The position numbers and the translations under genes are program-made. Source: Lentisphaera araneosa HTCC2155 (GTDB lineage Bacteria > Verrucomicrobiota > Lentisphaeria > Lentisphaerales > Lentisphaeraceae). Taken from it: a stretch of 64,000 bases of DNA. The notes beneath the pieces are model-generated. The model was not told the DNA's origin. It did not search any database and saw only the letters and a list, made by a program, of their open reading frames with translations. The stretch's first letter is position 1. Each line of letters opens with the position of its first letter. Below, piece after piece: positions 7,609 to 41,619 of this stretch. Where the stretch lies: contig NZ_ABCK01000004.1 of the NCBI RefSeq assembly GCF_000170755.1, positions 186,001-250,000 of the forward strand. Reading direction: 5' to 3'.

Positions 7609-7758
7609 CTCAAAGCTATAGTCAGAATATTCAATAAATCATAGGATACAGTCTAGATTCAGAGGACCGAGTCCAGTTTACTTAAGTGCAGCTTCATTCA
7701 TATCCGGTCACGTCTTTCATAAACATTCTAATTAAAACTGATTTAATCAGAGTAAAGA

Positions 7759-13711: not shown

Positions 13712-13775
13712 AGCTATGAATAGAATTAATCTCATTTCATTTAGTAAAAAGCTTATTTCAAGTAGATAAACTGAC

Positions 13776-13797
13776 TATAGAATATAAATTATCATAC
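13776..13797 (+). promoter_or_regulatory. Tandem operator, site 2 (before the regulator)
   Basis: TATAGAATAT (13776-13785) and ATTATCATAC (13788-13797) keep the 12-base spacing, with weaker matches. This is the only copy directly before a regulatory gene, which suggests autoregulation by the GntR-type protein. Confidence 0.5.
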
Positions 13798-13828
13798 AAA
13801 ATGTATTTTAATTAAACAGGAAAATCTT

Positions 13829-14857
13829 ATGCCAGGCTATAAAGAAATTGCACAAACAATGGAACAAGAAATCAAAGACGGGAAGTACGAGGAACGCCTC
13901 CCCACGATTGATGGCTTGTGTGATATTTACAAAGTCTCTCGAGTTACCATGCAGCGTGCCATTGGCGTCCTCAAAAAACGTGAAGTCGTCAATACTTCAC
14001 CAAAGCGTGGCATTAGTGTAACTCGCCTCAAACGCCCACGCTCACATGTTTTAGGCGCTGTCTTGCATACAAAATATGGCTCACCACTTCACGAACAATT
14101 AATTGAAGGCATGTATCACGAAGCGGAAAAATTCAACGAAGTTGTCGCCGTCTCAGCAGGTACTCTTGGAAATGTAAAAAAAGAAGTCACGCAAATCAAA
14201 CAACTCTTGGAGAAGCAAAAAGTCGACGGATTCGTGATTTGGCCAAGTTGGAACGATGGCAAAGTATCTCCGGGCGTTAAATATCTGATTGATGAAGAGA
14301 TCCCCTTTGTTGTTGTTCCAGATGACTTTCAACACCAATATAGAAACTGTAATTTAGTGACAAACCGCAATGATACGGGTAGTTCTGAAGTCATGACTCA
14401 CCTCTTAGGATCTTCATATAAAAACATCCTCTTTGTCACAAAAAGCAATGGTATTGCTCCTAGTTTTACAGAAAAGCGTTATGAACAGTACAAAAAATCT
14501 TTGGGCTTAGCCAATCTAAAAAGCTACCCAATGATGACCTGCAAGGCATTAGCCAAAAAAAGAAAAGTTTTCGATGGTATTGACGCCATCTTTTGCGATA
14601 CCGATGAGTGCGCAATTGAACTTGTAAAAATATGCTTGCAAAAGGGCGTGAGTATCCCTGGTGATATTGCCTTAGTGGGCTACGACAATACAAAAATTGC
14701 TCATAAGCTAGACATCACTAGCATCGAGCAACACTTTGGGAATCTCGGTCGTTTAGCCATCGATGTCTTAATACGTGATATTAACGGAGAACTCATAGAG
14801 AAAGAACATCATACAGTTCAGTCTGAACTCATTATAAGAAACAGTAGTAAACGATAA
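13829..14857 (+). CDS. GntR-type HTH regulator with LacI-type sugar-sensing domain
   Basis: The 342-residue protein joins a GntR winged helix (about 1-70, with RLPTIDGLCDIYKVSRVTMQ as recognition region) to a periplasmic-binding-protein-like ligand domain (about 75-342) of the LacI/GalR type. The architecture is that of the arabinose repressor AraR. It ends with a typical LacI-type SELIIRNSS. AGGAAAA precedes the ATG. It is followed after three bases by an esterase gene and is preceded by a copy of the tandem operator, so it is the leading candidate for the controller of the whole locus, inactivated or activated by a breakdown sugar. A duplicate of its last 37 codons is found at 27816. Confidence 0.88.
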   Translation: MPGYKEIAQTMEQEIKDGKYEERLPTIDGLCDIYKVSRVTMQRAIGVLKKREVVNTSPKRGISVTRLKRPRSHVLGAVLHTKYGSPLHEQLIEGMYHEAEKFNEVVAVSAGTLGNVKKEVTQIKQLLEKQKVDGFVIWPSWNDGKVSPGVKYLIDEEIPFVVVPDDFQHQYRNCNLVTNRNDTGSSEVMTHLLGSSYKNILFVTKSNGIAPSFTEKRYEQYKKSLGLANLKSYPMMTCKALAKKRKVFDGIDAIFCDTDECAIELVKICLQKGVSIPGDIALVGYDNTKIAHKLDITSIEQHFGNLGRLAIDVLIRDINGELIEKEHHTVQSELIIRNSSKR

Positions 14858-16385
14858 AATATGAAACTTTTTTCGCTTCTAATTATGTTTGGAACCATCG
14901 TACAAGCTAATGATTTACGCTATTTTGCGGAACATGATAAACGCGAGATCAAAAGTGAAATCATTGATTCAGAACATCAATTGCGCTTAATTTCCAGCTT
15001 ACCTGAGAATTGGCAAGAATCTGATAAACGGCCCGCATTTGTCTTCATTCACGGCGGTGGTTGGGTCGCTGGAGAACCCGAAAATTTCATCCCCCAAATG
15101 CGTTACTTTGCATCTCGTGGTGCCGTATGCTTTAGTGTAAATTACCGTTTACTCAAGCCAAAAAATTACCGTTGGAATAAAAAACTAAGTGATGAAGAGA
15201 ATAAAATTAATGAGCAGAAAAAGCTCCAAGAGTTTATTGCTGGCCCCTCATTAACTGAGCTAATTTCCGATTGTGAAAAGGCCATGCTTCACATTCGTAA
15301 AAACGCCAGTTCTTATGGAATTGACCCCAAACGTCTCATTGTCATTGGCGACTCGGCCGGAGGTCACCTAGCTTCATGTATGGCTACAATTGTCAAAGCA
15401 GAAGCTCGAGCCAATACTCTTGTTGATTGCAATGGCATTACTGACGTCACTTATGACCCTTGGATCAACAATATAAAACCCTGTAATGATCAGCTTGCCA
15501 AGGCTAAACAAGTTTCTCCCGTCTTCAACATTCCCACGCAGCCCATCCCAGCTCTCATCCTCCATGGTGACCAAGACTTTATTGTTGTTGAAAAAATGGC
15601 AAGGGAATTCCATAATGCCTTGTATAGCAAAGGATATTCGTCAGAATTCAAACTCTATAAAGGAGCTCGCCACGCCTTTATCGTGTACAACTACAGTGCA
15701 ACTTTAGAAGAAATGACTCAATGCCTTTTAGATATTGATGCATTTGCGGTTAAACATAACTTTTTAAGTGGTCAAGCAACACTCGCCATGCCCGATTATT
15801 CAGTCGCCGATCAAAAAATAATTTTACAAGCTGCAGAACTTAAAACGGGTCAAGAGTTTAAATACGCAAAAGACTTTCCAGGGCAATTTACCTTGAGTCT
15901 AAAAATTAAACCCGAAAAGAAATTTAATGGCAGCCTCTTGCAACTATCAGGGAACTTTGGGCTTAATCACAAAGTACATAATAATGGGCACGACTTATCC
16001 AGCCGCCGCTTTCGTCAAAGAAACAAGGGTTTTAAGCTCATTGCAGAGCAATGGAACGACTACCAATTAGCCGTTTCTAATGATAAAGTTGTCATTACTT
16101 TGAATGGCCAAACAACAGAATATGAAAAAAATCTTCCCCTAGGATTTATTTCAAACACACTGATTATTGGCAAAGGCTTAAAAGCCGAAGTCAAAGATCT
16201 AAAGCTCTATAATTACCCCTTCTAATTAGGGTAGATTAAATTGTCAGCAACTTTGAAATTATAAGTAAGAAATGGCCATGATCACACTGTGCTTTAGCTT
16301 TCTGGCAGACGATTTTGTTTTATCAAAGCAAAAGAACTGTCCAGTATCTTCAATCATCATCCCGAAGCCTATAAGTCAATGGCTT
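14744..16385 (+). repeat. Duplicated block, copy 1
   Basis: This block (regulator 3' end, esterase, Kelch gene start) matches 27816 to about 29470 in order and orientation. Nucleotide identity is close to complete in the middle of the esterase and lower toward both ends. Here the Kelch part is decayed. Confidence 0.85.
14861..16225 (+). CDS. Secreted alpha/beta-hydrolase esterase with C-terminal beta-sandwich, copy 1
   Basis: The 454-residue protein has a signal peptide ending around QAND. Residues 20-300 are an alpha/beta hydrolase of the carbohydrate-esterase/lipase-like type, with HGGGWVAGEP as oxyanion motif and a Ser165 (GDSAGGHLAS), Asp239 (LHGDQDF), His271 (ARHAF) triad. The last 125 residues resemble a LamG-like sandwich (LSLKIKPEKKF, ITLNGQTTEY) that may bind the polymer. 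It probably removes acetyl or feruloyl-type esters outside the cytoplasm. It follows the regulator by three bases. A second copy at 27933 differs at about twenty residues. Confidence 0.87.
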   Translation: MKLFSLLIMFGTIVQANDLRYFAEHDKREIKSEIIDSEHQLRLISSLPENWQESDKRPAFVFIHGGGWVAGEPENFIPQMRYFASRGAVCFSVNYRLLKPKNYRWNKKLSDEENKINEQKKLQEFIAGPSLTELISDCEKAMLHIRKNASSYGIDPKRLIVIGDSAGGHLASCMATIVKAEARANTLVDCNGITDVTYDPWINNIKPCNDQLAKAKQVSPVFNIPTQPIPALILHGDQDFIVVEKMAREFHNALYSKGYSSEFKLYKGARHAFIVYNYSATLEEMTQCLLDIDAFAVKHNFLSGQATLAMPDYSVADQKIILQAAELKTGQEFKYAKDFPGQFTLSLKIKPEKKFNGSLLQLSGNFGLNHKVHNNGHDLSSRRFRQRNKGFKLIAEQWNDYQLAVSNDKVVITLNGQTTEYEKNLPLGFISNTLIIGKGLKAEVKDLKLYNYPF

Positions 16386-16448
16386 AAAACAGGCATCAGA
16401 TGTCCCCAAGTCATGCCATCTTCAAAAAATTTAAAGTGTGGGAATTAA
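16278..16448 (+). pseudogene. Remnant of the Kelch protein gene
   Basis: The 56-residue frame starts MITLCFSF and continues ADDFVLSKQKN and IIPKPISQW, matching the first 40 residues of the intact Kelch protein at 29341. It then becomes unrelated sequence and stops one base before the sulfatase ATG. The signal-peptide region is shortened. The Kelch body has been lost or replaced, so this is a truncated relic of the duplication. Nothing else is visible in the gap before the sulfatase. Confidence 0.75.
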
Positions 16449-16449
16449 A

Positions 16450-18354
16450 ATGAAATTGCACAAGCTCATCATCCTTCTTAGCTTATCATTCAATTCTATG
16501 GCTCTTCAAAATCCTAATATCCTGTGGATTGTCAGCGAAGATAATAGTGCCAACTGGTTAGGAGTTTACGGCAACAAAAATGCCACAACACCCCATTTAG
16601 ATAAACTCGCCGGCGAGGGCTTCACCTATACTCAGTGCTATTCAAATGCGGCCGTATGTGCGCCTTCCCGCTCTACCTGGATTACAGGCATTCATGCGGT
16701 TTCTATGGGAACTCAGCCCATGCGTAGCCACTACCCTATCCCCCACGATCAAATCAGCTATTTCCCCGATCACTTGAAAAAAAATGGCTATTACGTCTCC
16801 AATCACTTCAAAACAGATTACAATATTGGCGGACGCGACGATTTTGATTGCTGGGATAATGACAAAAATGATTCCCAAAAGATCTATGGGTGGAGGAAGG
16901 CGCCAAAAGATCAAGCTTTCTTTTGCCAAATAAATATTCACGATTCCCACGAGAGCCAAGCCTTTGGCTTAATTGATCAAACCCGTCATGACCCAAAACA
17001 AATCACCCCCTTCAAATATCACCCAAATACTAAAGTCATGCGCCAGAACTATGCTCGTTATTTGGATAAAATTGAGGACATGGATCGCCAGGTTGGAAAC
17101 ATCCTTAAAGAGCTTAAAAAGGATGGCCTGGAGAATAATACCATTGTAATCTATAGTTCTGATCACGGCGGTGTGATGTTCCGCAGCAAACGTTTTATCT
17201 ATAATTCGGGAACTCACTGCCCGCTCATTTTGCGCATTCCGCCAAAGTATAAAGAACTTTGGCCGACTCAAAAGCCCGGGAGCGTTATTCACCGCCTGGT
17301 AAGTTTTGTGGATATGCCAAAAACCTGGCTCAGCATTAGTCAATCTGCGATTCCCGCAAATTTTCAAGGGCGTATATTTTTAGGCTCAGAAATTGAACCA
17401 GAAGCCTCATTTCACTTCTCCTTTCGCGAACGTGCTGATGAACGCATAGATAATGCTAGGATGATTAGAGATAAAGATTTTATCTACATCAAAAACTACC
17501 TGCCTTTTGTTCCCACCGGGCAGAACCTGATGTATCCCAATATTATGAAAGCGACTCAGGAATGGCGTGAACAACATCAACAAGGACTTACAGATAGCAT
17601 TACAGGCCGTATCTTTGGCGCCAAAGATAGTGACGAGCTCTATGACTCCAACAAGGATTACGACAATATTAATAACCTTGCCAAGGACGAACCTTATAGT
17701 CAAAAACTTAAAGAGCTCAAGCAAGCCATGCGTGAGTATCAGCTAGAAATCTTTGATTCAGGCTTACTTCCCGAAAGTGAACGTTTGCGTTTAGCGCAAA
17801 AACATAAAATGACAATTTATGAACTCATCCGTAAACCGGAGCTTTATAATTTGCCCGCACTGCTAGATGCTGCCGATTTTGCGATCAGCGCAAAAAAATC
17901 AGATCAAGTACAGCTCTGTAATATGTTAAACTCCCAAGATCTAGGGATTCGCTATTGGGCGACTACGGCTTTCTGCCGTTTAAACAACTTAAGTAAGCCA
18001 TCCATAAGCAAACTTAAACACTGCCTTTCCGACGAGTCTCACGAGGTGCGCATTTATGCGGCTTACGCGCTCATAAAAAATGGCCATAGCGAAGAAGCCT
18101 ATCAATGCTTGCGAACCCTCTTTGATCAGAAAAGTTATGCTCGTCTTACTCTACTCAACGCCATAGACTGGCTCAAAATTGGCAAGCAATTTATTGATGA
18201 ACTCAAAGCAATGAATACAGACTGTAATTATGAACAAGACATGCGCTCACTCATTTTCAAAAACAACGGACTTCCCTATGATTCCAACTGGGCACAAAAT
18301 AAATACCAACGTCTCGAAGAAGAAGCAATATCTAAAAGAGATTCAAGACCCTAA
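16450..18354 (+). CDS. Secreted sulfatase with C-terminal HEAT-like repeats
   Basis: The protein has 634 residues from the ATG at 16450, preferred because it begins the signal peptide MKLHKLIILLSLSFNSMA; a GTG four codons earlier is also in frame. It is a type I (S1) sulfatase: NILWIVSEDNSANWLG holds the metal site, and CAPSR with Cys70 is the formylglycine motif, needing conversion by a maturase not seen here. HGGVMFRSKR in the middle carries further metal and substrate residues. Residues from about 460 form HEAT-like helices (RYWATTAFCRL, VRIYAAYALI). The overall style resembles N-sulfoglucosamine-type sulfatases. It lies downstream of the regulator and esterase and shares their promoter. 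Confidence 0.9.
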   Translation: MKLHKLIILLSLSFNSMALQNPNILWIVSEDNSANWLGVYGNKNATTPHLDKLAGEGFTYTQCYSNAAVCAPSRSTWITGIHAVSMGTQPMRSHYPIPHDQISYFPDHLKKNGYYVSNHFKTDYNIGGRDDFDCWDNDKNDSQKIYGWRKAPKDQAFFCQINIHDSHESQAFGLIDQTRHDPKQITPFKYHPNTKVMRQNYARYLDKIEDMDRQVGNILKELKKDGLENNTIVIYSSDHGGVMFRSKRFIYNSGTHCPLILRIPPKYKELWPTQKPGSVIHRLVSFVDMPKTWLSISQSAIPANFQGRIFLGSEIEPEASFHFSFRERADERIDNARMIRDKDFIYIKNYLPFVPTGQNLMYPNIMKATQEWREQHQQGLTDSITGRIFGAKDSDELYDSNKDYDNINNLAKDEPYSQKLKELKQAMREYQLEIFDSGLLPESERLRLAQKHKMTIYELIRKPELYNLPALLDAADFAISAKKSDQVQLCNMLNSQDLGIRYWATTAFCRLNNLSKPSISKLKHCLSDESHEVRIYAAYALIKNGHSEEAYQCLRTLFDQKSYARLTLLNAIDWLKIGKQFIDELKAMNTDCNYEQDMRSLIFKNNGLPYDSNWAQNKYQRLEEEAISKRDSRP

Positions 18355-18370
18355 GCTACCATGGCGCGCC

Positions 18371-18476
18371 TATTAATCCGGCGAGGAGTCACTATTAATC
18401 CGGCGACAATATAGAGTGAAAAAGTATTAGCTAATAATGCTGTAAGCATGAATATATTATGAATGCTGTAAGCATG
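18371..18476. repeat. Two pairs of short direct repeats
   Basis: TATTAATCCGGCGA occurs at 18371 and 18393 (22 bases apart). AATGCTGTAAGCATG occurs at 18436 and 18462 (26 bases apart), each copy being a small hairpin (ATGCT-GTA-AGCAT). They fill the gap after the sulfatase and may contribute to transcript ends or be replication-slippage debris. Confidence 0.5.
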
Positions 18477-18572
18477 GATTAGGGCTTTGATCCGTTTCTT
18501 CAGAACTCCGTTATTCAAGTAAATCTCATTCATTGCCAAAGTAATAGCTAATGACGGAGACAAATAAGTCAT

Positions 18573-18609
18573 TTGACTTTTGTTATTTATAGAATACTAT
18601 ATAGAATAC
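18573..18609 (+). promoter_or_regulatory. Promoter with tandem operator, site 3
   Basis: TTGACT at 18573 and TACTAT at 18595 are 16 bases apart. Operator units are two identical TATAGAATAC sequences at 18588-18597 and 18600-18609, the clearest direct-repeat example. They overlap the -10 box. Confidence 0.65.
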
Positions 18610-18678
18610 ATAAATATTTCGGGCTACTACTGGAGTCTTTTTGCTGTAGATAAAAAATAATAATTAGACTGGAGACTC

Positions 18679-21600
18679 ATGAAACTCATCACCACCCTAT
18701 CTATACTAAGCCTGATGCTGTCCTCACTTACTTCCTGTTCGGCGGCGCAGGACATTCCACTCGTACAAGGCTTCCCCGATGGGGAATCAGTATTGAATAA
18801 AACGTCTGTCCCACACCAACAGCCCGAACCACAGTTGGTTTATAAGAATAAGGGTTATCAAATAGATGTCTTGAGTAAGGTACCAAAGGTAGGCATACAC
18901 CCACGCGTACTAATGAGCCCTGCAGATGTACCTCGCATTCGTCAAAATATCGAAAAGAATGCTTTCAGTAAAATATTTTGGGAGCAATACATTCTGCCAA
19001 TGGTTATGGACACCAAGAAGGGTGAGATGAAACCTATCTCCAAGGCACGCATTGATGCCGCCGCTCTCTACGCCTTGGTTAAAGATGATGCCGAATACGG
19101 CAAAAAAGTGGCTACCGAGTTGGTTAAACAAGCCCAGAAGGTCAGCGAACTTTTTAAAGAAAACGATGCCACCAAACCCTACTGGGATAACTGGTGGATA
19201 AGCGGAACACGAGACAAGGTGAGCAAGGTGGCCCAAGCTTATGACTTTGTTTACAATTTTATGACTGATAAACAACGGAATGCCGTGCGCGCCGTGATCG
19301 CCCAGGCCACCGCTGGTCGTTATAATCATGGTATGGAACTACCTCGTTCGTGGCGCACCTGGAACTGGCCACAGTTTTCGCAAAACATGGTCAACGATGT
19401 TTTGGCTATCGAAGGTGAAGAAGGTTACGACCCTCGTATTTTAGAGGTCTGCCGCGAAGCGGTGACCGATTTCCAGACTTATAAGATTGGCCCCAATGGC
19501 TGGGACTTTGAGTCCACTGGCTACAACGGCCTGGCCTATGGCGGCGGCGGTGTACAATCATTACACGCCATCGCACGCCGAACCTCGCCAAGTATTCTTA
19601 CCCACCCGCATCTTCAGGCCAAAATCGCGGCACTTGTCGCCCAGCAAGCCACACCCACCGGCACTTGGTATGGTCGCGGTGATGCCGCAGGTGGCCCACC
19701 ACAACAGGAGTTCACACATTTGATGCGCGCGGCTTATCCCAATGATCAGCGCTGGCAGATTCAATGGGTCAATTCATTTGGTGTGAAATTATTATCAGAA
19801 GGCAAAATTAATAAGAAATCCTACCATCTTCTACGCAACAGCCTTGGTTTACCAATGTTGCTTTTTGCTGTTGATCAAAATATTGATCCCGATGCACTCT
19901 GGAATAAAAACAATGGCCCCCTTACATTCGAATCCCCCACTCGTGGTTACATGGCCACCCGCTCGGGTTGGGATGCCAAAAACGATATTCACCTCACCTA
20001 TGCATCTTATACCAAAATGCGTGATACGGGTCATGACGGTCCCGACGCTGGAACCTTCTCTCTTGCAGGACAAGGTGAAAACTGGACCCGCATAGGTGAT
20101 AAATATCACAAAGAATCAGCCTGGCGAAATTATATTGCGATTAATGGCGGCGGCATGAAGTACGGAACCGCCCCCGGCCTATGGCTACCCACGGTTGATA
20201 AAAAAATGGCCACCAGCGCCCGCAGCGATCAGAGTTACGCCTTTTCTTGGAGGATACAGAATGGCCGTTACAACGTTCTCTATTCACCGATGTTCGAAGA
20301 AGATCCCTATAACTATCTCAACACCTGGGCCCGCAACAACGCGCGCAGATTACGCGGCTCTGAGCCCGATGCTACGCCCTTTTCGCGTGAGTTCTGGAGC
20401 ATGGCCAGTACAAACTACGGCCTGTGGAACGGTGAAGATCGCCACCCCACCCGTCGTATTGAAAACCTACCCGTTGAGCGAGCTTTTCGCAGCGTGACCA
20501 TGGTGCGAGGTGATCATCCCTATGTTCTCACCGTCGATGACATTCAAGTTGATGATCAGAAGCAACTCTACACCTGGTTGATGACTTTGACCGGACAAAA
20601 CGAGGTTGTCTCTAAGACCAAAGACTTGCATAAGGACTTCCCGCAGATCATTCTGCGTCGCGCATCCAAGGATGGAGCCAAATTACAGAAGGGTGAGCCT
20701 CTTATGTTAGTACGGGTCCTGCAGCGTAATTTTGACGGCTTCCCCACTATTCGCCTCGATATCGATCAAGGTGAGAGTGGTAACAATCAACGCATCATTG
20801 TCCCAAGTATGAGTGTAGCTCCAGATTTTAAGGTCCTGCTCTATCCGCATCGCCATGGTGATCCCTTGCCTATCACCAAATGGAACGCTACTAAGACCAG
20901 TCTAAGTGTCGATATAGCTGGTCAGTCTGATCGTATTGATTTTGCATCTGCGTATGTTGACCGCCGACCTATGGGTGGCCATGGTGAAGAAACCTATTAT
21001 ACGATTACTCGCGATGACTCTACCATAATAACCGTTGGCGGTCCCCCGTCTCTGCCCCGCCCCATAAGCCCGGCGAAAGATTTTATCGACAGCATGGAGG
21101 TCGCCTTCGAATCTCCTAACCCTGGCCAGCTTATTCATTACACCACTGATGGTAGTGAGCCAACGTCAAAATCACCTGTTTACAGCGGCCCCATCACCAT
21201 CGATCGTAGCACCGAGTTTCGCGCAATTACCGTTGCCCCCGAGTGGGCCTTCGGCGATGCTAAGAGCGCTAATTACCGTAAACTGGTCAATACCGGTTTT
21301 ATTAAAAACATCGCGCCCACCTATAAACAGAAGGTGAGTATCATCGACCCTAAGGCTTCTACTCCAGTGAGCATCCGCTATACCAAGGTGCCAGCCGCAG
21401 CTCCCGTCACTACAGCAGATACCGTTTCTTCTGGTATTGAACTGGCCCTCTATGAATTGCCAATCACCATGTGGCGCGGTTCAAAAATAGATCTCAAATC
21501 ACCCCTGATGCCGGAGGATCTTGATAAGTTGGTACCCATTTACCGTAGCTACCAACAAAACTTGAAATTGCCGCGTATCCCCCAAACCGTAGAACAATCT

Positions 21601-23370
21601 AAGATGTATCAGGGCCTCTACGTGATCAGTGCTTATGTGAATGCACCGGTGGCAGGTACCTATGATTTTAGCATGCTATCCTGCGGTCCGACTAAACTCA
21701 CCGTTGCAGGCAAGGTTCTAGTCGATATCCCTGGCCCATACCACACCCGCCTCACCGAGCGTCAAGGCAGGGTTATTCTTAAAGCTGGTTTGCACCGCTT
21801 AGAGGCTATTGCTGCAGATCCGATCTTCTTCACCAGCGCTACCGTGCCAGTGGTAAATTTCGATCTCAAGATGAAGGCGCCGGGCACAGTTGATTTTGTC
21901 AGCCTAGATGAGACTCACCTTTTCCGGGACAAGGACCTGGCCTTCAACATAAGCAGTAATTATGTCGAATTGGGTCAGCCACTTGTTATCGAAAACCAAG
22001 GGCATGGAGATATCCAGATTAGCCTCGATGGCGGCAAAAGCTATCAGCCCTACTTAAAGCCCCTAGTCTTCGATGACACCATCAATGTCGACCTAAAAAT
22101 ACGTCGTGGTGCCAATGGCCCCGTTATCGACAAGCCCCTGCATGTGATTGCCAAACTCAAGGCCCTAGAATCCCTTCCAGTACTCAAGGCCGGCATGATT
22201 CGGCGTAGCTATCTTCACAATGTTCCGATGGCACTTGGTTTCAGTTCGTCCAACCAAGGCAAACAGATCATTAGCTACCCCACCGATTCGACTGTCGATA
22301 ATTTCGCAATGCTCAAACAAACCAAGCCTCAAGAGGTGCTGGCGGTTAGCGAGATGATCAACGACAAGGTTGGCGGCATCATACGTACCTACACCGGTAT
22401 GTGGCGTGCGCCTGAAAACGGTGTCTATGAATTCTCCATGAACTATGAGGGTTGTAGTAAACTCGAAATCGGCGGCCTGCATGTGGCCAGTAACAATAAC
22501 AAAAATGGCCGCACCGAGGGTAAGGTCATGCTCGAGCAAGGTTGGCATGAACTCACGGTAATGTTTGTTGCCGCCAGGCCTCAATTGTTCGTTAAAGGCC
22601 CGCGGGCCACAAAACCCACTCAGCTTCAGGTAAATGATTTTTTCTATGATGCTCAACTTGAACAAAAGTCGTTTACCCCCGATGTCACCGGCAAGCCAGC
22701 ATCATTTGTTATGGGTGCTTGGTTTGGATCTGACGATCAGACTCAAGTCGACACCCGTTTGACCAGTGAAATATTCGGAGCCAAAGCATTAGTTGGTGAA
22801 CGTCCAGGAGCCCATCAGTTCTCAGGCGATAAGAGTATGATATTAGTGCGCGATGCAAAACCAACGAGCAAGAGTTGCACCATAAGTATGTGGATCAAAC
22901 CCAACGAGCTCAAAGGCATGCAGTGGTTATGGAACCGCCAGAACGTCGGTTGGGTCTATACCCAACGCGGTGGTATAGCCTTGAATCTCAAAAACGATCA
23001 GATCGGTGTAAACTATCATGGTCAGAATCGTCAGCCGATCACCGTAGGCACGGTGAAGACAGGGATTTGGCAACACCTGGCTATGACTATTGACGCCAAA
23101 CCCGGTGATAAGACTCAGGTCGAGGTCTGGCTTAATGGCCAGCGCATTTACAGCGATCTATACGGCAAGGGCATCGATATTCCTGTCACCTACATGGAAT
23201 TCTTTGGCCAGGTCAACCGCCAGAATACCGAGACCCTCACAACGGGTGGGCTTGACTATGATGGGCTTAAAGATCTGTTGGGCAATTGCTACAGCGGCGC
23301 TGCCGCCGATGTGCGTTACTTCGACGCTGCCCTGCCCGATGCAGCAATCAAGGTTCTAGCTGGTAAATAG
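18679..23370 (+). CDS. Large heparinase II/III-like lyase lipoprotein with PA14-like and LamG domains
   Basis: The 1563-residue protein has a lipoprotein signal (LTSC, Cys20). Order: leader with GIHPRVLMSPADVPRIR at about 73; alpha-helical toroid with the YDFVY segment (Tyr188, Tyr192) and RTWNW; heparinase II/III-like beta-sheet domain with GHDGPDAGTF (His452); chitobiase-type C-terminal sandwich (about 795-860, YTTDGSEPTSKSP); two PA14-like domains (about 975-1085 and 1175-1320); and a LamG domain (1345-1563). It should cut uronate-containing polysaccharide by beta-elimination. The full-length paralog is at 42504. It is visibly richer in G+C than that paralog. GGAG lies before the ATG, and the next lyase follows 65 bases later in the same unit. 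Confidence 0.85.
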   Translation: MKLITTLSILSLMLSSLTSCSAAQDIPLVQGFPDGESVLNKTSVPHQQPEPQLVYKNKGYQIDVLSKVPKVGIHPRVLMSPADVPRIRQNIEKNAFSKIFWEQYILPMVMDTKKGEMKPISKARIDAAALYALVKDDAEYGKKVATELVKQAQKVSELFKENDATKPYWDNWWISGTRDKVSKVAQAYDFVYNFMTDKQRNAVRAVIAQATAGRYNHGMELPRSWRTWNWPQFSQNMVNDVLAIEGEEGYDPRILEVCREAVTDFQTYKIGPNGWDFESTGYNGLAYGGGGVQSLHAIARRTSPSILTHPHLQAKIAALVAQQATPTGTWYGRGDAAGGPPQQEFTHLMRAAYPNDQRWQIQWVNSFGVKLLSEGKINKKSYHLLRNSLGLPMLLFAVDQNIDPDALWNKNNGPLTFESPTRGYMATRSGWDAKNDIHLTYASYTKMRDTGHDGPDAGTFSLAGQGENWTRIGDKYHKESAWRNYIAINGGGMKYGTAPGLWLPTVDKKMATSARSDQSYAFSWRIQNGRYNVLYSPMFEEDPYNYLNTWARNNARRLRGSEPDATPFSREFWSMASTNYGLWNGEDRHPTRRIENLPVERAFRSVTMVRGDHPYVLTVDDIQVDDQKQLYTWLMTLTGQNEVVSKTKDLHKDFPQIILRRASKDGAKLQKGEPLMLVRVLQRNFDGFPTIRLDIDQGESGNNQRIIVPSMSVAPDFKVLLYPHRHGDPLPITKWNATKTSLSVDIAGQSDRIDFASAYVDRRPMGGHGEETYYTITRDDSTIITVGGPPSLPRPISPAKDFIDSMEVAFESPNPGQLIHYTTDGSEPTSKSPVYSGPITIDRSTEFRAITVAPEWAFGDAKSANYRKLVNTGFIKNIAPTYKQKVSIIDPKASTPVSIRYTKVPAAAPVTTADTVSSGIELALYELPITMWRGSKIDLKSPLMPEDLDKLVPIYRSYQQNLKLPRIPQTVEQSKMYQGLYVISAYVNAPVAGTYDFSMLSCGPTKLTVAGKVLVDIPGPYHTRLTERQGRVILKAGLHRLEAIAADPIFFTSATVPVVNFDLKMKAPGTVDFVSLDETHLFRDKDLAFNISSNYVELGQPLVIENQGHGDIQISLDGGKSYQPYLKPLVFDDTINVDLKIRRGANGPVIDKPLHVIAKLKALESLPVLKAGMIRRSYLHNVPMALGFSSSNQGKQIISYPTDSTVDNFAMLKQTKPQEVLAVSEMINDKVGGIIRTYTGMWRAPENGVYEFSMNYEGCSKLEIGGLHVASNNNKNGRTEGKVMLEQGWHELTVMFVAARPQLFVKGPRATKPTQLQVNDFFYDAQLEQKSFTPDVTGKPASFVMGAWFGSDDQTQVDTRLTSEIFGAKALVGERPGAHQFSGDKSMILVRDAKPTSKSCTISMWIKPNELKGMQWLWNRQNVGWVYTQRGGIALNLKNDQIGVNYHGQNRQPITVGTVKTGIWQHLAMTIDAKPGDKTQVEVWLNGQRIYSDLYGKGIDIPVTYMEFFGQVNRQNTETLTTGGLDYDGLKDLLGNCYSGAAADVRYFDAALPDAAIKVLAGK

Positions 23371-23435
23371 AATACAGATCAACTATAAAGAAAAATAAAA
23401 ATGAAAAAAATTTTTACCAACAAGAAAGGAGAAAC

Positions 23436-26400
23436 ATGAAATTTATTACCACTAGCCTATCCATACTTACTTTTATGGCTTTTAACTGTTCAACATTTGC
23501 CCAGGCAGAAACAGCCCCGGCAAAACCTATTCTTCATTGGGCTTTTGATTCACCCTTTGAGTTTGGTTCAAAAGAATACGATTCATCGGGCAATAATCAT
23601 GACGGTGAAGTCGTTTGGGATAGAATTGGTAGTACGGGTGGTATGCAATGGGCACCCGGTAGAGGTGTGTTTGGCGGTGCGGCCAACATGAAAGAAGGTG
23701 TACGTGGTTACATACGAACCCAAGGAAAACTATCACTTCCAACTCAATGGTCTCTCTCCTTATGGATTAAACCCAATGTCAGCAAGGGTCGTATTGATAG
23801 CCTTGTGTGTTTTAACTCAGATGGTAAGCGGGTATTAAATGTGAGTGGCCACAATAAAGGAGGGTTTACTCTCTCCCACCTAGTTGGGGATACAAGCCAC
23901 CTATATCCCTTTGTCTTTCCCACAATGAAAAAAGACCAATGGAATAACGTAGTGGTGGTATGGGGGGCTAAGGAAATAAGCTGTTATTACCAGGGTGAAC
24001 CCAAAACTCTACCCTTAAAATCAAGCTGGAATCCAGCGGTACAATTATCCATGGAATTTTCTGGGGGGAGTCATCAACATCGATCTTTCGGCTTATTTGA
24101 TGAGTTACGAATATACGGCAGCGCGCTTTCTGCTGAGAAGGTCAAAGAATTAAGCCAACTAAGCTACTATGCTACTGAGAAGCGAAGTCCCATCGCCGAT
24201 GGGGGAATGGGGTATACAGCATGGCTAAAAAAAGGCAAGGCCGGTTTTACCATGGCCGGTGGGGAAATGTACACAGATCAAGAAAAAGGCTCAACTGCAG
24301 GAAAGACAGTTTACCTCTGGGAAGTAGTAAAAAAACCGGCGGGAGCAAAACCTAGCTTTAAGGATGCGAGTGATCCTCTAACAAGCTTTTCCACCAATAA
24401 GGCGGGGGCTTACAAATTACGCTTAAAGACATCCAATAATTCAGGGAGCGACACCGCCCTGGTTAATGCAGCTATTTTTACTCCGGATAAGGGTCCGAAA
24501 ACTACAACATTCTACGAGATGCCCGCCGATCGTTTTGACGGGCTTGTGATTGGCTCCCACTCTGAACGAATCGCAAAAATAGCGGGGAAGTCCATTGCCC
24601 CCATAGCCTACTGGAATTTTGATGCCATGCCTGAGGCAAGCTCTGTCACCATGTCCCAAGCCGCATCCATTGTTCCCGAAGGCAAGCTAGGCAATGGGTT
24701 GGCCATCAGGCCAGAGAAACGCAAAAGCGGGGTTATTGACTTTGGTTCCTTCAAAGCCCTCGCTGATGAATTTACCATCTCTTTTTGGGCGACCTCCGAA
24801 AGAGATACTCGTAGGGCGTCCTTCTTCCAAGCGAAGGGTGAGAATGGCAAGCCTTATTGGGCCATGGACAATAGCCATAATACTTCTAAGATCGCCAATC
24901 GCAGTACCTTGATGTTTGGGAGCCTTCGCTATCCCATACAGCTGGAAGGTAACTGGAATCATATTGTGATTAGTTATGGTCCAACCGGTAAGATGCGAAA
25001 GCTCTGGGTTAATGGTTGGCTGGCGGGCACCAAAGCCTATGAGCCTCTATCGAATGAAGCGACTGGGGTGCCCCAACTTATTTTTAATATCCCGGGAGAT
25101 AACTACGCCTTCGAGGGCATTATCGATGAGGTGGCTCTTTATGACAAGATGCTCAATAATGAAGAGGTGCTCCAGATTTATAAGAACGGCGTTCCTTCCT
25201 TAAGCATGCGCGTGCCGGAGGATCCTTACAGTACCCGTGCCTACCCCAACTCATTTGTAAAAAAATGGTTCCCAGAGCCAACCCCTCAATATCAATTAAA
25301 TGGCTTTGCAGAAGAGCGCTTTAACGGCGGAGACCTACCCGCCTATACCCATCCGCGACTTAATATGACCCTCGAGGACCTCCCTCGAATTCGAGAGGCC
25401 CTTAGTAAAACCCGGCATGGCAACAACAATCGTTCATTTATGTATACCTATGCCCGCACTATGTTTGGTTTTGACCTTGAGAATTATGGTCCAAATTCCA
25501 CGGTAAGTGATAAGCCGCCAGCGGGTCAAAATCCCTTCCAGTTAAAAAATGGAGGCTATCCACAACACGATGTTGATTGGGCTGCAACGGCTCGTATTGC
25601 CTTGGCCTTAGAGGCCCTATTAACGGCCGATACAGACATGGCCCGTATTCTAATTGACGGAATGTTGGAGTCGGCTACGTTGCAACAACAGCATTTCGAT
25701 TGGTATATTTCGCGCAAGATTAGTAGTTGGCAAGAAACACAGGGTATTCTCGGGCGGCGCATGACCCCGATTCTCTATGACTACCTCTACAATTTCATGA
25801 CAACTGAAGAACGGGCGATTATTCGCAAGGTGTTGGCAACCGCTACCGCTGGCTCCTATTCCATAGGCATGTTTACCATGCCTGCCGGGCAATGTAATAG
25901 CTCAAATTGGCAACCATGGATTACCGGGGACATGGTGATTACACTTCAATCTATCTACGGGGAGAATGGTTTTGATCCCTCCACCTATAAAGAGGCGGTG
26001 CGGGCGGTTGAACTCTGCGCAGAGGTGATGAATGACCCCGAGTCGGGTGTTCATCGTGAAGGTATGGGTAAGAGTAACATAGCCTCTACCCAAATGTCGG
26101 TCATATCTATGATGCAGCCCAAGGGAAAGAAAATAATCTCCAGTAAGGCGATGTACAATAATATAGCCAAGTTCCGTTTCCACAATACCCTGCCCTGGGA
26201 TCCAGGTACGGTGATGTATGACCAGAAAAATGGCGGTAATCATCCCTTGCCTATCGCAGCGATAAATGTACTACATTATGCATATCCGGATGATCCTATT
26301 CTCAATTTTATGAAGCACGTCATTGATTCGGGTCCTAAGAAATATATTTCATTGCGGCCGAGAACTTTTTCTCAAGAATCATGGATGATATCTGCGATCT

Positions 26401-27491
26401 ATACCCAAGATTGGAAAGGACCTGCAGATCTGCAGGATCATCTGAAACAAGTAGTGAAAGAAACCGGCGAGCCCCTAGGATATTTTAGTGATGCCCGAGG
26501 TCATATGGTCAGTCGTTCGAGTTGGGAAGCCAATGCGCTACAGCTCTACTACGTAGCACGGGTGGTCACCGCGGGACACCAGGCGCCCATTCGGGGTTAT
26601 TTTCAGGTGAACGGCCTGGGACGGCAATGGCTTACCTTTCGAAGCCGAGCAAATCACCACAGTCGGGCCAACTCTTTAGTAACCGTAGATGGTGAAGGAC
26701 AGGATAACTCTGCTGTACGTACACTTCACTATAGTGGGGTAGCTAAAGACAAGAATGCTACCTTTGATAGTATGGGTAGTGACCTCACCGCGGCGTATCG
26801 TCAGGCAAATAACCCCTGGCCCAACCTTAACTACACGCGATTGAAACCAGATGCACGTCCCTGGTTTAATATGCCCTTTAAGTATCTCGTTAATTGGTAT
26901 TTTGGCGATCGCCCCCAGCACCAAATTCTCGAACCCAATGAAGTTCCCTTTGACCCAAAGAACTACAGTGGGAAAAAAGAATTTGATTATGCTTACCGCA
27001 CTGCCAAATTTGCGCGAGGGAAACATCCCTACATCCTTATTCTTGATGATGTCAAAAAGGATGATAAGCAGCGGGAATATGTCTGGAATGGTGCGCTCCC
27101 TGATGACTTCAAACAGAATTTGGGAGATCACACGATCACGGCTAATACCGCCATTCTCGTGGACCCCAAAGATCCAAAGCAACGTCTCTTCATAAAGGTG
27201 TTTGGTTATGAGGGAGAGGGTTCCTTTGTTCTAGAGCATTCGCTACCGACACAAGATGTTGATCGTGCGAAAATGGATCTTAATATTAAGAAGATGCCCT
27301 ATAATCTTAAGTTTAAGAATGCCGCCAAAACCGCGAAATTCAGAACCCTCATCTACGCCCACAAGGAAGGGGATGAACTACCGAAGATAACTGGTGGCAA
27401 TGGTCGTTACACCATTACTATTGGAGACCAGGTTGATGAATTGCGTCTGGGGAATTCACCAGGAGATAGAAGTGAGCTTAGTCGAAAATAA
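23436..27491 (+). CDS. Heparinase II/III-like lyase with two LamG domains
   Basis: The 1351-residue protein has a signal peptide ending near FAQA. Order: LamG domain (about 33-230), PKD/Ig-like domain (250-350), second LamG domain (390-590), then the lyase part from HPRLNMTLEDLPRIREAL (about 638) to the end. The toroid has YDYLYNFM and SSNWQPW. The segment at the conserved His1048 is GHQAPIRGYF, where other family members have His-x-His-x-x-Asp, so the mechanism may differ. LamG domains suggest binding to the polymer. It has AAAGGAG before the ATG and follows the lyase at 18679. The partial gene at 62554 is its paralog, with the same domain order. Confidence 0.83.
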   Translation: MKFITTSLSILTFMAFNCSTFAQAETAPAKPILHWAFDSPFEFGSKEYDSSGNNHDGEVVWDRIGSTGGMQWAPGRGVFGGAANMKEGVRGYIRTQGKLSLPTQWSLSLWIKPNVSKGRIDSLVCFNSDGKRVLNVSGHNKGGFTLSHLVGDTSHLYPFVFPTMKKDQWNNVVVVWGAKEISCYYQGEPKTLPLKSSWNPAVQLSMEFSGGSHQHRSFGLFDELRIYGSALSAEKVKELSQLSYYATEKRSPIADGGMGYTAWLKKGKAGFTMAGGEMYTDQEKGSTAGKTVYLWEVVKKPAGAKPSFKDASDPLTSFSTNKAGAYKLRLKTSNNSGSDTALVNAAIFTPDKGPKTTTFYEMPADRFDGLVIGSHSERIAKIAGKSIAPIAYWNFDAMPEASSVTMSQAASIVPEGKLGNGLAIRPEKRKSGVIDFGSFKALADEFTISFWATSERDTRRASFFQAKGENGKPYWAMDNSHNTSKIANRSTLMFGSLRYPIQLEGNWNHIVISYGPTGKMRKLWVNGWLAGTKAYEPLSNEATGVPQLIFNIPGDNYAFEGIIDEVALYDKMLNNEEVLQIYKNGVPSLSMRVPEDPYSTRAYPNSFVKKWFPEPTPQYQLNGFAEERFNGGDLPAYTHPRLNMTLEDLPRIREALSKTRHGNNNRSFMYTYARTMFGFDLENYGPNSTVSDKPPAGQNPFQLKNGGYPQHDVDWAATARIALALEALLTADTDMARILIDGMLESATLQQQHFDWYISRKISSWQETQGILGRRMTPILYDYLYNFMTTEERAIIRKVLATATAGSYSIGMFTMPAGQCNSSNWQPWITGDMVITLQSIYGENGFDPSTYKEAVRAVELCAEVMNDPESGVHREGMGKSNIASTQMSVISMMQPKGKKIISSKAMYNNIAKFRFHNTLPWDPGTVMYDQKNGGNHPLPIAAINVLHYAYPDDPILNFMKHVIDSGPKKYISLRPRTFSQESWMISAIYTQDWKGPADLQDHLKQVVKETGEPLGYFSDARGHMVSRSSWEANALQLYYVARVVTAGHQAPIRGYFQVNGLGRQWLTFRSRANHHSRANSLVTVDGEGQDNSAVRTLHYSGVAKDKNATFDSMGSDLTAAYRQANNPWPNLNYTRLKPDARPWFNMPFKYLVNWYFGDRPQHQILEPNEVPFDPKNYSGKKEFDYAYRTAKFARGKHPYILILDDVKKDDKQREYVWNGALPDDFKQNLGDHTITANTAILVDPKDPKQRLFIKVFGYEGEGSFVLEHSLPTQDVDRAKMDLNIKKMPYNLKFKNAAKTAKFRTLIYAHKEGDELPKITGGNGRYTITIGDQVDELRLGNSPGDRSELSRK

Positions 27492-27655
27492 AATAACATC
27501 ATAAGTTGTTCACCCTCCCCGCCTATATGAGGGGGGGGGATGAAAGCAATTCCTACAGGGAATGTAAAATGGCTATAGCTTTTTACTGATTCAAAAAAAG
27601 TATCATAGTTATGGCGTAGTGCCAAGTGTGGACTTTGAAGAGACGTGGATTGCAT
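27492..27655. other. Gap with C-rich/G-rich hairpin
   Basis: CCCTCCCC at about 27513 faces a run of nine G at 27531-27539, forming a possible strong stem. It is a candidate terminator for the lyase pair, although no T-run follows. The rest holds no gene. Confidence 0.35.
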
Positions 27656-27692
27656 TTGACTTATTAGAATAATAGAATACTATTTATCATAT
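27656..27692 (+). promoter_or_regulatory. Promoter with tandem operator, site 4 (before a gene remnant)
   Basis: TTGACT at 27656 and TACTAT at 27678 are 16 bases apart, the same boxes and spacing as at site 3. Operator units are AATAGAATAC (27671-27680) and TTTATCATAT (27683-27692). It now drives a truncated gene and, beyond it, the second esterase. Confidence 0.5.
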
Positions 27693-27711
27693 GCAGAGGA
27701 GCTTTGTCAAA

Positions 27712-27815
27712 ATGAACTATTTTTTGCTTTAACTTATTCCATTCAGCCTATTTGCCAGCTTTCCAGAGGAAATGCGTTTTCCAGTGAATCAGCTTTTCCA
27801 ATATAAAGTTGAACT
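27712..27815 (+). pseudogene. 5' remnant of an alpha/beta-hydrolase paralog
   Basis: After a GAGGAG site the frame reads MNYFLL, stop, then LIPFSLFASFPEEMRFPVNQ and LFQYKVEL. This matches the mature N-terminus of the hydrolase at 30908 (SPEAMRSPVSQVFQFKVEV). Only the signal peptide and about 20 residues remain. The homology breaks exactly where the duplicated block begins, so the insertion of that block removed the rest of this gene. Confidence 0.7.
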
Positions 27816-27929
27816 CTCGGTCGTTTGGCCATAGAATTATTACTTCGTGACATTAACGGAGAACTCAAAGAGAAAGAACACCATACAGTTCAGTCTGAAC
27901 TCATTATAAGAAACAGTAGTAAACGGTAA
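27816..27929 (+). pseudogene. 3' fragment of the GntR-type regulator gene
   Basis: The last 37 codons of the regulator at 13829 are present in frame with five substitutions (LGRLAIELLLRDINGEL and onward to SSKR). There is no start or DNA-binding part. It ends four bases before the second esterase, as in the original. Confidence 0.85.
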
Positions 27930-27932
27930 AAT

Positions 27933-29297
27933 ATGAAACTTTTTTCACTTTTAATTATGTTAGGAACAGTATTACAAGCTAATGATTTACGCTATTTTGC
28001 GGAACATGATAAACGCGAGATCAAAAGTGAAATCATTGACTCAAAACATCAATTGCGCTTAATTTCCAGCTTACCTGACAATTGGCAAGAATCTGATAAA
28101 CGGCCCGCATTTGTCTTCATTCACGGCGGTGGTTGGGTCGCAGGAGAACCCGAGAATTTCATCCCCCAAATGCGTTACTTTGCATCTCGCGGTGCCGTAT
28201 GCTTTAGTGTAAATTACCGTTTACTCAAGCCAAAAAATTACCGTTGGAATAAAAAACTAAGTGATGAAGAGAATAAAATTAATGAGCAGAAAAAGCTCCA
28301 AGAGTTTATTGCTGGCCCCTCATTAACTGAGCTAATTTCCGATTGTGAAAAGGCCATGCTTCACATTCGTAAAAACGCCAGTTCTTATGGAATTGACCCC
28401 AAACGTCTCATTGTCATTGGCGACTCGGCCGGAGGTCACCTAGCTTCATGTATGGCTACAATTGTCAAAGCAGAAGCTCGAGCCAATGCTCTTGTTGATT
28501 GCAATGGCATTACTGACGTCACTTATGACCCTTGGATCAACAATATAAAACCCTGTAATGATCCGATTACCAAGGCTAAACAAGTTTCTCCCGTCTTCAA
28601 CATTCCCACGCAGCCCATCCCAGCTCTCATCCTCCATGGTGACCAAGACTTTATTGTTGTTGAAAAAATGGCAAGGGAATTCCATAATGCCTTGTATAGC
28701 AAAGGATATTCGTCAGAATTCAAACTCTATAAAGGAGCTCGCCACGCCTTTATCGTGTACAACTACAGTGCAACTTTAGAAGAAATGACTCAATGCCTTT
28801 TAGATATTGATGCATTTGCGGTTAAACATAACTTTTTAAATGGTCAAGCAACACTCGCCATGCCCGATTATTCAGTCGCCGATCAAAAAATAATTTTACA
28901 AGCTGCAGAACTTAAAACGGGTCAAGAGTTTAAATACGCAAAAGACTTTCCTGGACAATTCACCTTAAGCCTAAAAATTAAACCCGAAAAGAAATTTCAT
29001 GGTAGTCTCTTGCAACTCGCAGGTAGTTTTGGGCTTAATCACAAAGTACATAATAATGGGCACGACTTATCCAGCTGCCGCTTTCGTCAAAGAAATAAGG
29101 ATTTCAAGCTCATTGCAGAGCAATGGAATGACTACCAATTAGCCGTTTTTAAAGATAAAGTTGTCATTACTTTGAATGGCCAAACAACAGAATATGAAAA
29201 AACGCTTCCCCTAGGATTCATTTCAAACACACTGATTATTGGCAAAGACTTAAAAGCCGAGATCAAAGATCTGAAATTCTATAATTACCCCTTCTAA
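27933..29297 (+). CDS. Secreted alpha/beta-hydrolase esterase with C-terminal beta-sandwich, copy 2
   Basis: The 454-residue protein is about 96% identical to the copy at 14861, with the same signal peptide, HGGGW oxyanion motif and Ser165-Asp239-His271 triad. Differences cluster in the signal peptide and in the C-terminal sandwich (for example NGSLLQLSGNF against HGSLLQLAGSF). The catalytic part from about residue 95 to 185 is almost unchanged even at DNA level, which points to recent copying or gene conversion. It is followed by the Kelch gene in one unit. The likely role is the same deacylation, with possibly altered binding of the polymer. Confidence 0.87.
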   Translation: MKLFSLLIMLGTVLQANDLRYFAEHDKREIKSEIIDSKHQLRLISSLPDNWQESDKRPAFVFIHGGGWVAGEPENFIPQMRYFASRGAVCFSVNYRLLKPKNYRWNKKLSDEENKINEQKKLQEFIAGPSLTELISDCEKAMLHIRKNASSYGIDPKRLIVIGDSAGGHLASCMATIVKAEARANALVDCNGITDVTYDPWINNIKPCNDPITKAKQVSPVFNIPTQPIPALILHGDQDFIVVEKMAREFHNALYSKGYSSEFKLYKGARHAFIVYNYSATLEEMTQCLLDIDAFAVKHNFLNGQATLAMPDYSVADQKIILQAAELKTGQEFKYAKDFPGQFTLSLKIKPEKKFHGSLLQLAGSFGLNHKVHNNGHDLSSCRFRQRNKDFKLIAEQWNDYQLAVFKDKVVITLNGQTTEYEKTLPLGFISNTLIIGKDLKAEIKDLKFYNYPF

Positions 29298-29340
29298 TCA
29301 ATCTGAGATTTAAAATAATACGAAGAACCTAGGTATCACC

Positions 29341-30792
29341 ATGAAAATACTCTTTTTACTGTGCTTTAGTCTTTGCCTCATGGCAGAAGATTTTGTTTTA
29401 TCAAAGCAAAACAACTTTCCGGAATTTCCAATCAATATCCCTAAGCCCGCAAGTCAATGGCCCCAATCATCAAGTCAAAGAAGCTTTGATGTTTATGGCA
29501 ATTATTGGACTTTAATAGATGGCGAAGTATGGCTCCTCAAAGCCAGCTCAAAACAATGGCAAAAGCTGGACAATGTGCCAAAAGGGCAATGGCAACACCT
29601 AATTAACGATGAAACTGGCAAGCTGGTCATTGCAGATGATACACAAATTTTCCGATTGAACCCTTCCAAAGTCAAACAGGGATGGAAAGATTATTCTAGC
29701 TTGACCCAAGGAGCCAAAATTACCGACCTCACCATTGCCCCTACTGGCGGTATGCTCATCGCTTGTGATAACAATAAAATCATCGAGCTCATCACCCTAA
29801 AAAAGAAAGATCACATCACTGAATATCAAACTAAGTTTAAAGTCGATAAAATTTTTGTTGATGACTTGGGCAGTATTTGGTTTAGATCCGGAAACGATCA
29901 CTACATAAAAGAGTCTTCCAAAGATGCCTGGCAGCGCGACTGGAAGCTCGTCGCTAGAATGCCGAGTGGGACTCACGACCTCGGTGGTGATGTGTTGCAG
30001 GGAAAATTCTACCTAGAGTGGGCCTTAACAGGTATGTATGACTTCCCCAACCAGGGGAAATGCCATGAAGAACTCCTTAGTTTTGATGGGGAAAAATGGA
30101 AAATCGAAGCTCATTTTGGCATGGCACGTGCATATTGTGGCGTATCCCACCTCGGCAACAAAATTATTACAGCCGGTGGTGAATCCCGCGATGCAGAAGG
30201 CAAAAAAAAATATCCCCCGATTGCCCAATCCTTTGATATCGAAAGTGAAAAAATGAGTAACCTGCCCGACCTGCCTCTAGCGCTTCCTAGTGCCCTCTCA
30301 TTCAACCACCAAAACCGTTATTACGTCATGGGATATGGACTAGAAAAAGAGGAACATAACATCCACTTATTCAGCATTGCTGACGGTGAATCACAATGGC
30401 AAGTCGAAAACAAGGGAGCTCTGGGCAAGGGGTCTTCCTATGGAGTTAAGCTCGAGGATAAGTTTTACCATATTGTCGACCATAAATACCTAGCTATTTT
30501 AGATCTTGGAACTATGAGCTGGACAACTATTGCTGTCCCCAATTCGCCTCGCTCTGCCGCTGTAGCTCACTATAAAGGAGAAATCTGGATCATGAGTGGC
30601 CGCAACAAAACATCTGATCGCGATGTGTATATATTTTCACCAGGGAAAAACACTTTTCGTAAGGGGCCTCAACTACCACACGGAATCATTTGGGGTACAG
30701 GCTTTAACTTAAATAAAAAGCTCTATATCACGGGAGGCGTAGACGCCAGCACATTCACTTTCAACAACGCTACTTACCAGTACCGACACTAG
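29341..30792 (+). CDS. Secreted Kelch-type beta-propeller protein
   Basis: The 483-residue protein has a signal peptide (MKILFLLCFSLCLMAED) and repeated Kelch-like blades: GNKIITAGGESRDAEGK, NRYYVMGYG, GEIWIMSGRNKTS and KKLYITGGVDAST. The blades at the N-terminal side are degenerate. Kelch propellers in secreted proteins bind carbohydrates or act as epimerases or oxidases; no catalytic residues are evident here. It follows the esterase by 43 bases, in the same order as in the decayed copy at 16278, so the pair probably functions together. It ends close to the converging hydrolase gene, with a hairpin between. Confidence 0.78.
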   Translation: MKILFLLCFSLCLMAEDFVLSKQNNFPEFPINIPKPASQWPQSSSQRSFDVYGNYWTLIDGEVWLLKASSKQWQKLDNVPKGQWQHLINDETGKLVIADDTQIFRLNPSKVKQGWKDYSSLTQGAKITDLTIAPTGGMLIACDNNKIIELITLKKKDHITEYQTKFKVDKIFVDDLGSIWFRSGNDHYIKESSKDAWQRDWKLVARMPSGTHDLGGDVLQGKFYLEWALTGMYDFPNQGKCHEELLSFDGEKWKIEAHFGMARAYCGVSHLGNKIITAGGESRDAEGKKKYPPIAQSFDIESEKMSNLPDLPLALPSALSFNHQNRYYVMGYGLEKEEHNIHLFSIADGESQWQVENKGALGKGSSYGVKLEDKFYHIVDHKYLAILDLGTMSWTTIAVPNSPRSAAVAHYKGEIWIMSGRNKTSDRDVYIFSPGKNTFRKGPQLPHGIIWGTGFNLNKKLYITGGVDASTFTFNNATYQYRH

Positions 30793-40303: not shown

Positions 40304-40331
40304 TTGAATGTATTATATAAAGTATTATATA
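40304..40331. promoter_or_regulatory. Tandem operator, site 6, divergent region
   Basis: Two identical GTATTATATA units at 40310-40319 and 40322-40331 are 12 bases apart. TTGAAT at 40304 and TATATT at 40328 (18 bases) could serve the plus-strand esterase gene. The same region faces the minus-strand hydrolase. Confidence 0.65.
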
Positions 40332-41565: not shown

Positions 41566-41608
41566 TTGAAATTTATTGAATCCAATATTATAATACATAT
41601 TAAAATAC
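41566..41608 (+). promoter_or_regulatory. Promoter with tandem operator, site 7
   Basis: TTGAAA at 41566 and TATAAT at 41589 are exactly 17 bases apart. Operator units ATTATAATAC (41587-41596) and ATTAAAATAC (41599-41608) cover the -10 box. The TTG of the -35 box is in frame with the next gene, but the promoter makes it an impossible start. Confidence 0.7.
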
Positions 41609-41619
41609 ATGGAGACCTT

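Follow-up and report, generated by a model that had tools for sequence, protein, structure and literature searches.

The esterase gene H-B is preceded by a recombination join at 27814/27815 of the window (the whole 64,000-nucleotide stretch of DNA analysed), where the head of an X1-like gene abuts the tail of the regulator gene R. This join is a real and old rearrangement, common to all three genomes of the genus examined (3/3), and as an event it belongs to an ordinary class of genome reshuffling; its relics form a clear succession. The account favored here, with a probability of roughly 0.7, is that part of an R-H-K gene row was duplicated, that the copy was joined illegitimately to the head of an X gene, and that gene conversion and deletion subsequently reshaped the two copies.

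Structure of the join upstream of H-B

The segment following the join (27815-27932, plus strand) is a 118-bp copy of 14743-14860 (91% identity, blastn E 2e-35), consisting of the last 37 codons and the stop of R, a GntR/LacI-type regulator, and the triplet AAT, after which the esterase ATG follows. The first-pass annotation, made from the letters alone, had recognized both this regulator tail and the recombination join itself, and the place it gave for the latter (27816) is right except for the exact base, which lies one or two bases away. The match to 14743-14860 is the only long one of the intergenic region 27492-27932 within the window; two further matches, both short and weak (E 0.002 and 0.004), fall on the promoter elements at 10907 and 18570, respectively. 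Genome-wide, the junction leader has no nucleotide match except itself and the R tail.

On the other side of the join, 27712..27814 (plus strand) derives from an X1-like gene, of which it covers the start and the signal-peptide region. Reading from the ATG at 27712 yields MNYFLL*LIPFSLFASFPEEMRFPVNQLFQYKVEL, with a stop at codon 7, which aligns to residues 14-46 of X1 with a score of 73, against a maximum of 47 in 5000 shuffles (0/5000 reach 73) and against 35 for the second-best of the 25 window proteins compared. The relic comprises a signal-peptide-like start followed by PEEMRFPVNQLFQYKVEL and is out of frame with the R tail across the join. X1 is a 561-aa protein (30908-32593, minus strand), and its relative X2 (38603-40246, minus strand) does not match the relic (score 24). 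The alpha/beta-hydrolase label first given to this family is not confirmed, since X1 proteins have no Pfam or NCBIfam match at 1e-3 and X1 has no convincing PDB match and a fold model that is unusable (pLDDT 38). Nor is the relic a beheaded gene, as had been proposed: it is head-only, and it has decayed separately in each lineage, through the stop codon in the window and a one-base length difference in the congeneric genomes G001 and G002. An intact gene, suggested as something to look for at this place in related strains, is absent in both congeners.

Further upstream, the tail of a pseudopilin-like gene remains at 27497..27575 (plus strand, edges approximate), and three gene fragments, pilin tail, X head and R tail, thus stand in a row before H-B. 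The pilin relic is longer in the congeners, where it is headless, spans 98 codons and lies between PL2 and the X head (L010:3875-4168 of G001, minus strand; same in G002). It resembles the window pseudopilins at 41566 and 54507 (0/3000 shuffles in each case) and has no family match at 1e-3.

The host assembly of the window (G000) is a draft split into 81 contigs, and the locus carries a 1.65-kb repeat, from which an artefactual join could have arisen. This explanation is vanishingly improbable: the identical join, with point differences around it, occurs in both congeneric genomes (2/2), which are assembled in 2 and 3 contigs, and this rules out an assembly error. The join is neither recent nor pristine, given that both of its sides have decayed, that it is common to three genus genomes and that the adjoining esterase has since been gene-converted. 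The R-tail frame was also considered as a candidate for a conserved small protein; it is open in six of six copies. B0 and B1 (A and B denote the two copies; 0, 1 and 2 denote window, G001 and G002) differ in it by 3 silent and 3 replacement changes, counts too small for a claim of selection, and the candidate was discarded.

Gene map and extent of the duplication

The join is one edge of a longer copy: the duplication runs beyond R, through the entire esterase and 121 bp into the kelch gene K. The stretch 14743-16383 is copied at 27815-29461 (93% identity over 1649 columns) and contains the R tail, the whole esterase gene H and the head of K. Copy A retains an intact R and a relic of K, copy B an intact K and a relic of R.

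Copy A is preceded by GFO (10973-12022) and GH31 (12023-13711), identified by family search and both located upstream of R. The intact regulator gene (13829..14857, plus strand) encodes 342 aa with a GntR-type DNA-binding domain and a LacI-type sensor (PF00392 and PF13377, above cut-off). H-A (14861..16225, plus strand), co-oriented with R and starting 3 bp after its stop, encodes a 454-aa BD-FAE/Abhydrolase_3-like esterase (PF20434, PF07859); assignment of H to the BD-FAE type is based on PF20434 above cut-off and on a GDSAG motif at residues 163-167. The kelch relic K' follows (16286..16383, plus strand, 98 bp; 81% identical over 104 columns to 29358-29461). Between the copies (16384..27491, plus strand) lie a sulfatase (16438-18354) and two large proteins, PL1 (18679-23370) and PL2 (23436-27491), all on the plus strand; the latter two were labelled by eye, Pfam giving lectin-like and accessory domains only. 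Copy B comprises the R relic, H-B (27933..29297, plus strand, 454 aa, 95% identical to H-A at the protein level) and the intact kelch-repeat gene K (29341..30792, plus strand, 483 aa, by family search), which neighbors H in all three genus genomes (3/3) and in the genome DT_58.

Fates of the two copies and divergence between lineages

In G001 and G002, H-A breaks off after roughly 142 residues, so that the GDSAG motif is lost, and runs on into the K relic at the sequence GGCCATG, forming reading frames of 197 and 190 aa. In the window this heptamer occurs at 15280 and 16274, the two ends of the stretch missing in the congeners, so that H-A was likely lost there by deletion between short repeats. 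H-B is consequently their only intact H. In the window, both H-A and H-B are open and differ at 58 of 1483 positions, with dN/dS values of 0.16-0.21 among H-A, H-B and the G001 H-B.

H-B is a mosaic, its edges going with the G001 orthologue and its middle with H-A. A run of 40 consecutive variable sites, out of 180, is common to H-A and H-B against G001, a length that 0/20000 shuffles reach (highest shuffle, 36). The core of H-B has thus been gene-converted from H-A in the window lineage. Since conversion overwrote most of one esterase, the overall identity of the two cannot date the duplication, a warning for any such comparison.

Divergence between the window and G001 is uneven along the locus. 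In 250-bp windows, identity is 64-86% over GFO-GH31 (window 10973-13889), stepping near 13.9 kb to 85-94% in R directly after; it is 86-100% from the K relic to PL2 and 84-94% in H-B and K. The stretch 16269-27524 is 95% identical overall, and synonymous divergence amounts to 0.06 for the sulfatase, 0.21 for PL1 and 0.07 for PL2, against 0.44 for R and 0.32 for H-B. The inter-copy block (window 16384-27640 compared with L010) is therefore less diverged between species than its flanks, suggesting that it was exchanged between lineages by homologous recombination after their split. The junction leader, 90% identical to that of G001 and decayed differently in each lineage, probably predates this exchange.

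The same difference in divergence (dS 0.06-0.21 for the block) would also be expected if the block had arrived by a Campbell-type insertion-duplication. In such an event, a unit in circular or tandem form, made up of R tail, H, K head and the 11.4-kb block of sulfatase and large proteins, would have entered an R-H-K operon by recombination, so that the homologous stretch came to flank the block at either end. A direct repeat (14743-16383 / 27815-29461) does flank the block, the layout R-H-K'-block-'R-H-K is the signature of such an event, and a similar layout occurs in G001 near window 37.8-42 kb, where 173 columns are repeated round an extra block. We nevertheless lean against this origin, possible as it is, because the incoming unit must already have carried both truncated ends and because a large protein also precedes H-K in DT_58, which suggests that such genes were earlier neighbors of H. 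In addition, the divergence between the K relic and K somewhat exceeds that between H-A and H-B, an argument that counts for little since conversion has made the esterases more alike.

In the G001 stretch L123 (G001:C1:1474000-1493999), the 173-column repeat lies at reverse-strand positions 7474-7643 and 14641-14813 and corresponds to the window gene at 37794-38591 (78% identity). The extra block between the repeats is of the esterase-pseudopilin-large-protein type, and X2 is fragmentary there.

The promoter/operator-like element

A promoter/operator-like element, TAGAATACTATTTATCATAT, is located at 27673..27692 (plus strand), with TTGACT at 27656, and matches the common pattern exactly in G001 and G002 as well. 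Its counterpart before R, TAGAATATAAATTATCATAC (13778..13797, plus strand), is also an exact match. The pattern TAGWATAYNNNNTANNATAY has four exact matches and no fifth in the 6.02-Mb genome, all of them in this locus, a count that is partly circular given that the pattern was written from these four sites. Each stands upstream of a start: the site at 10927 by 27 bp (GFO), that at 13778 by 32 bp (R), that at 18590 by 70 bp (PL1) and that at 27673 by about 20 bp (X-head ATG). In each congener, a search of 19.9 kb ranks the same four positions highest, with 0, 1, 0 and 0 mismatches at GFO, R, PL1 and the junction in G001 and 1, 1, 0 and 0 in G002; the next-best matches have 2 and 3 mismatches. 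These four sites are predicted operators of a putative R regulon.

Allowing one mismatch, 25 rows were recovered in the own genome, 6 of which (5 places) fall within the 64-kb window (Poisson P ~6e-6): 40310/40311, 41589, 48566, 52349 and 55340. At four of these places the element ends 25-64 bp upstream of a called start codon; the one at 41589 falls within the called ORF 41566-42399, perhaps a little ahead of where the pseudopilin gene really starts (judged by eye). Viewed as a group, these near-matches (40310-40330, 41589-41608, 48566-48585, 52349-52368 and 55340-55359) mostly read TATAATAC-N4-TATAATAC or close to it, with a 12-bp period, and perhaps represent a second operator subtype or a common promoter form. 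The site at 40310 precedes X2, the relative of X1, which makes regulated X genes plausible at this locus.

Other forms of the motif behaved differently. In both congeners the 27673 site no longer has its inner palindrome TAGNATACTA (it reads TAGAATACAT), and the R site lacks this palindrome too, though the longer pattern fits there. Genome-wide, neither the longer pattern (29 vs 37 rows) nor the shorter palindrome pattern (8 vs 19 rows) is enriched over a reversed control; the latter occurs in 7 places, 3 of them in this locus. Within the window, the TTGCATTTRACNTNT part gives 4 matches vs 7.0 in shuffles, not above chance, and the upstream TTGCATTT part was rejected as a motif on the same ground. 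A local scan with TAGWATACTATNTA, allowing two mismatches, gave 8 window matches vs 2.5 expected, a number reached by 2/100 shuffles.

Implications for the regulation of H and K

The first-pass annotation had the second esterase acquire an existing regulated promoter and so be captured by the regulon. A promoter region and an operator-like element do precede H-B; capture by the regulon is not supported in that form, as R has the same element. With this element before R and H-A starting so close behind the R stop, the esterase was probably in the regulon before the duplication, through a presumed R-H operon. The join thus makes better sense as a substitute for the lost R promoter than as a recruitment event: it probably re-supplied a regulon promoter to H-B and K, with transcription presumably starting near 27.7 kb, and R-linked regulation of H may have been unchanged by it.

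Alternatively, the leader could be debris, and transcripts of H-B and K would either read through out of 23436-27491 or start at a promoter in the R tail. No terminator-like site was found in 27400-28000, a TTGAAC/TAGAAT site is present at 27809-27837 and the frames of the relics are broken, all of which would accord with debris. We consider this unlikely, however, in view of the 27673 element: elements of its family precede start codons throughout the locus, and in both congeners this one still conforms to the pattern. Promoter-like sites in 27400-28000 number 3, close to the shuffled mean of 1.7, and canonical promoter spacing at the 27.67-kb element was dismissed, the TTGACT/TACTAT pair being near chance.

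The locus preserves a readable record of how a bacterial degradation locus was rebuilt: a regulator operon was probably split, one half keeping the regulator while the other took over, from a decaying gene, a promoter that apparently belongs to the same regulon. Provided that this regulon is real, genes of an operon can be parted from their regulator gene and yet stay in the regulon.

Occurrence in related genomes

The distribution of the three genes is narrow. Counting the own genome in each set, H is present in 4/59 relatives, 4/387 phylum-drawn genomes and 5/197 genomes of the class; K is present in 4/59 genomes and R in 3/59, the latter all of one genus and all with the rearranged locus (counts hold at the thresholds used). 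Gene order of the locus is identical in G001 and G002, and each genus genome (3/3) has one full-length R, in copy A, and one full-length K, in copy B. No uninserted relative with a single intact R-H-K was found among the 59 genomes, an absence that says little as the genus is represented by three genomes only.

Outside the genus, H and K are neighbors in DT_58, with a large protein before them. This genome provides the best match in a scan of named genomes and is the locus taken up from that list, which has 79 others, one named match being a Lentisphaeria bacterium, and its stretch (L012) is apparently the same contig as C341 of genome G023. In a further genome, G164, X and H are direct neighbors, X ending at 5924 and H starting at 6056; this X relative is 37% identical to X2 and 27% to X1. 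Close to this pair, in the G164 stretch (L125, 1-7417), lie a sugar kinase and an aldolase-like gene (both named by eye). An R relative directly beside H was found in neither the G164 nor the DT_58 stretch.

Proposed origin of the join

Both copies are collinear across the R tail, H and the K head, and an ancestral R-H-K operon is the simplest inference from this arrangement. From such an operon, the stretch between R codon 306 and K codon 41 would have been copied to a place 13 kb downstream, where illegitimate recombination fused it to an X1-like gene at codon 35; this gene would have brought a regulon-type promoter of its own. The most economical route would be homologous recombination at the H-K end combined with an illegitimate join between X head and R tail. 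Copy A would then have kept the regulator and lost K, and copy B kept K and lost the regulator, with a transcript probably running from the X promoter through a broken leader, made of X head and R tail, into H-B and K. In the window lineage, gene conversion from H-A would later have replaced part of H-B, and in the other lineage H-A would have been deleted, probably between the two GGCCATG repeats.

The pre-event state occurs in none of the 59 genomes searched, as all three R-bearing loci are rearranged. The outgroup orders, X-H in G164 and H-K in DT_58, fit one-sided homologous recombination as well as a deletion within an X-R-H-K row. In the latter case copy B once had X, R, H and K intact, and one deletion took the X body and the R head. 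A single deletion would yield the same join, X and H are direct neighbors in G164, and the congeners show a probable short-repeat deletion in this very locus; on the other hand, no genome has R between X and H (R being present in 3/59), and this scenario would call for a larger duplication and, separately, for K to be lost from copy A. An origin by such a deletion seems rather unlikely, and duplication with an illegitimate join to the X head is preferred.

A broader possibility, offered as speculation and rather a long shot, is that polysaccharide loci of the genus grow by repeated cut-and-join, blocks entering beside short duplicated fragments with regulon promoters, so that the joins are born regulated. 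The 27.9-kb esterase/kelch pair and the extra G001 block would then be two products of one process, and the flanking repeats would also let blocks move between species by homologous recombination. Among the titles listed for Lentisphaera with sulfatase or polysaccharide utilization, none concerns this locus.

Comparison with known systems

AraR-like regulators combine a GntR-type head with a LacI-type sensor. R resembles them in this domain order.

With respect to the join itself, one close parallel is promoter capture, in which, as outlined in PMC11111574, a deletion or a tandem duplication brings a coding region under a foreign promoter from the neighborhood. Here, the X head with the 27673 element is joined at 27815 upstream of H-B, the element presumably being part of an active promoter, and, as in the cases outlined there, illegitimate recombination links a gene to a foreign promoter. 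The difference is that silent genes are activated under selection in those cases, whereas here the join is old and the gene probably had a promoter of the same regulon before it. Homology-facilitated illegitimate recombination, as summarized in PMC3240628, likewise pairs a homologous end, here probably H-K, with an illegitimate one, here X head/R tail. Finally, in deletion-born gene fusions as sketched in PMC12803068, fragments of distant genes become adjacent, as they do here; the present case differs in that X and R are out of frame and form no fused reading frame.
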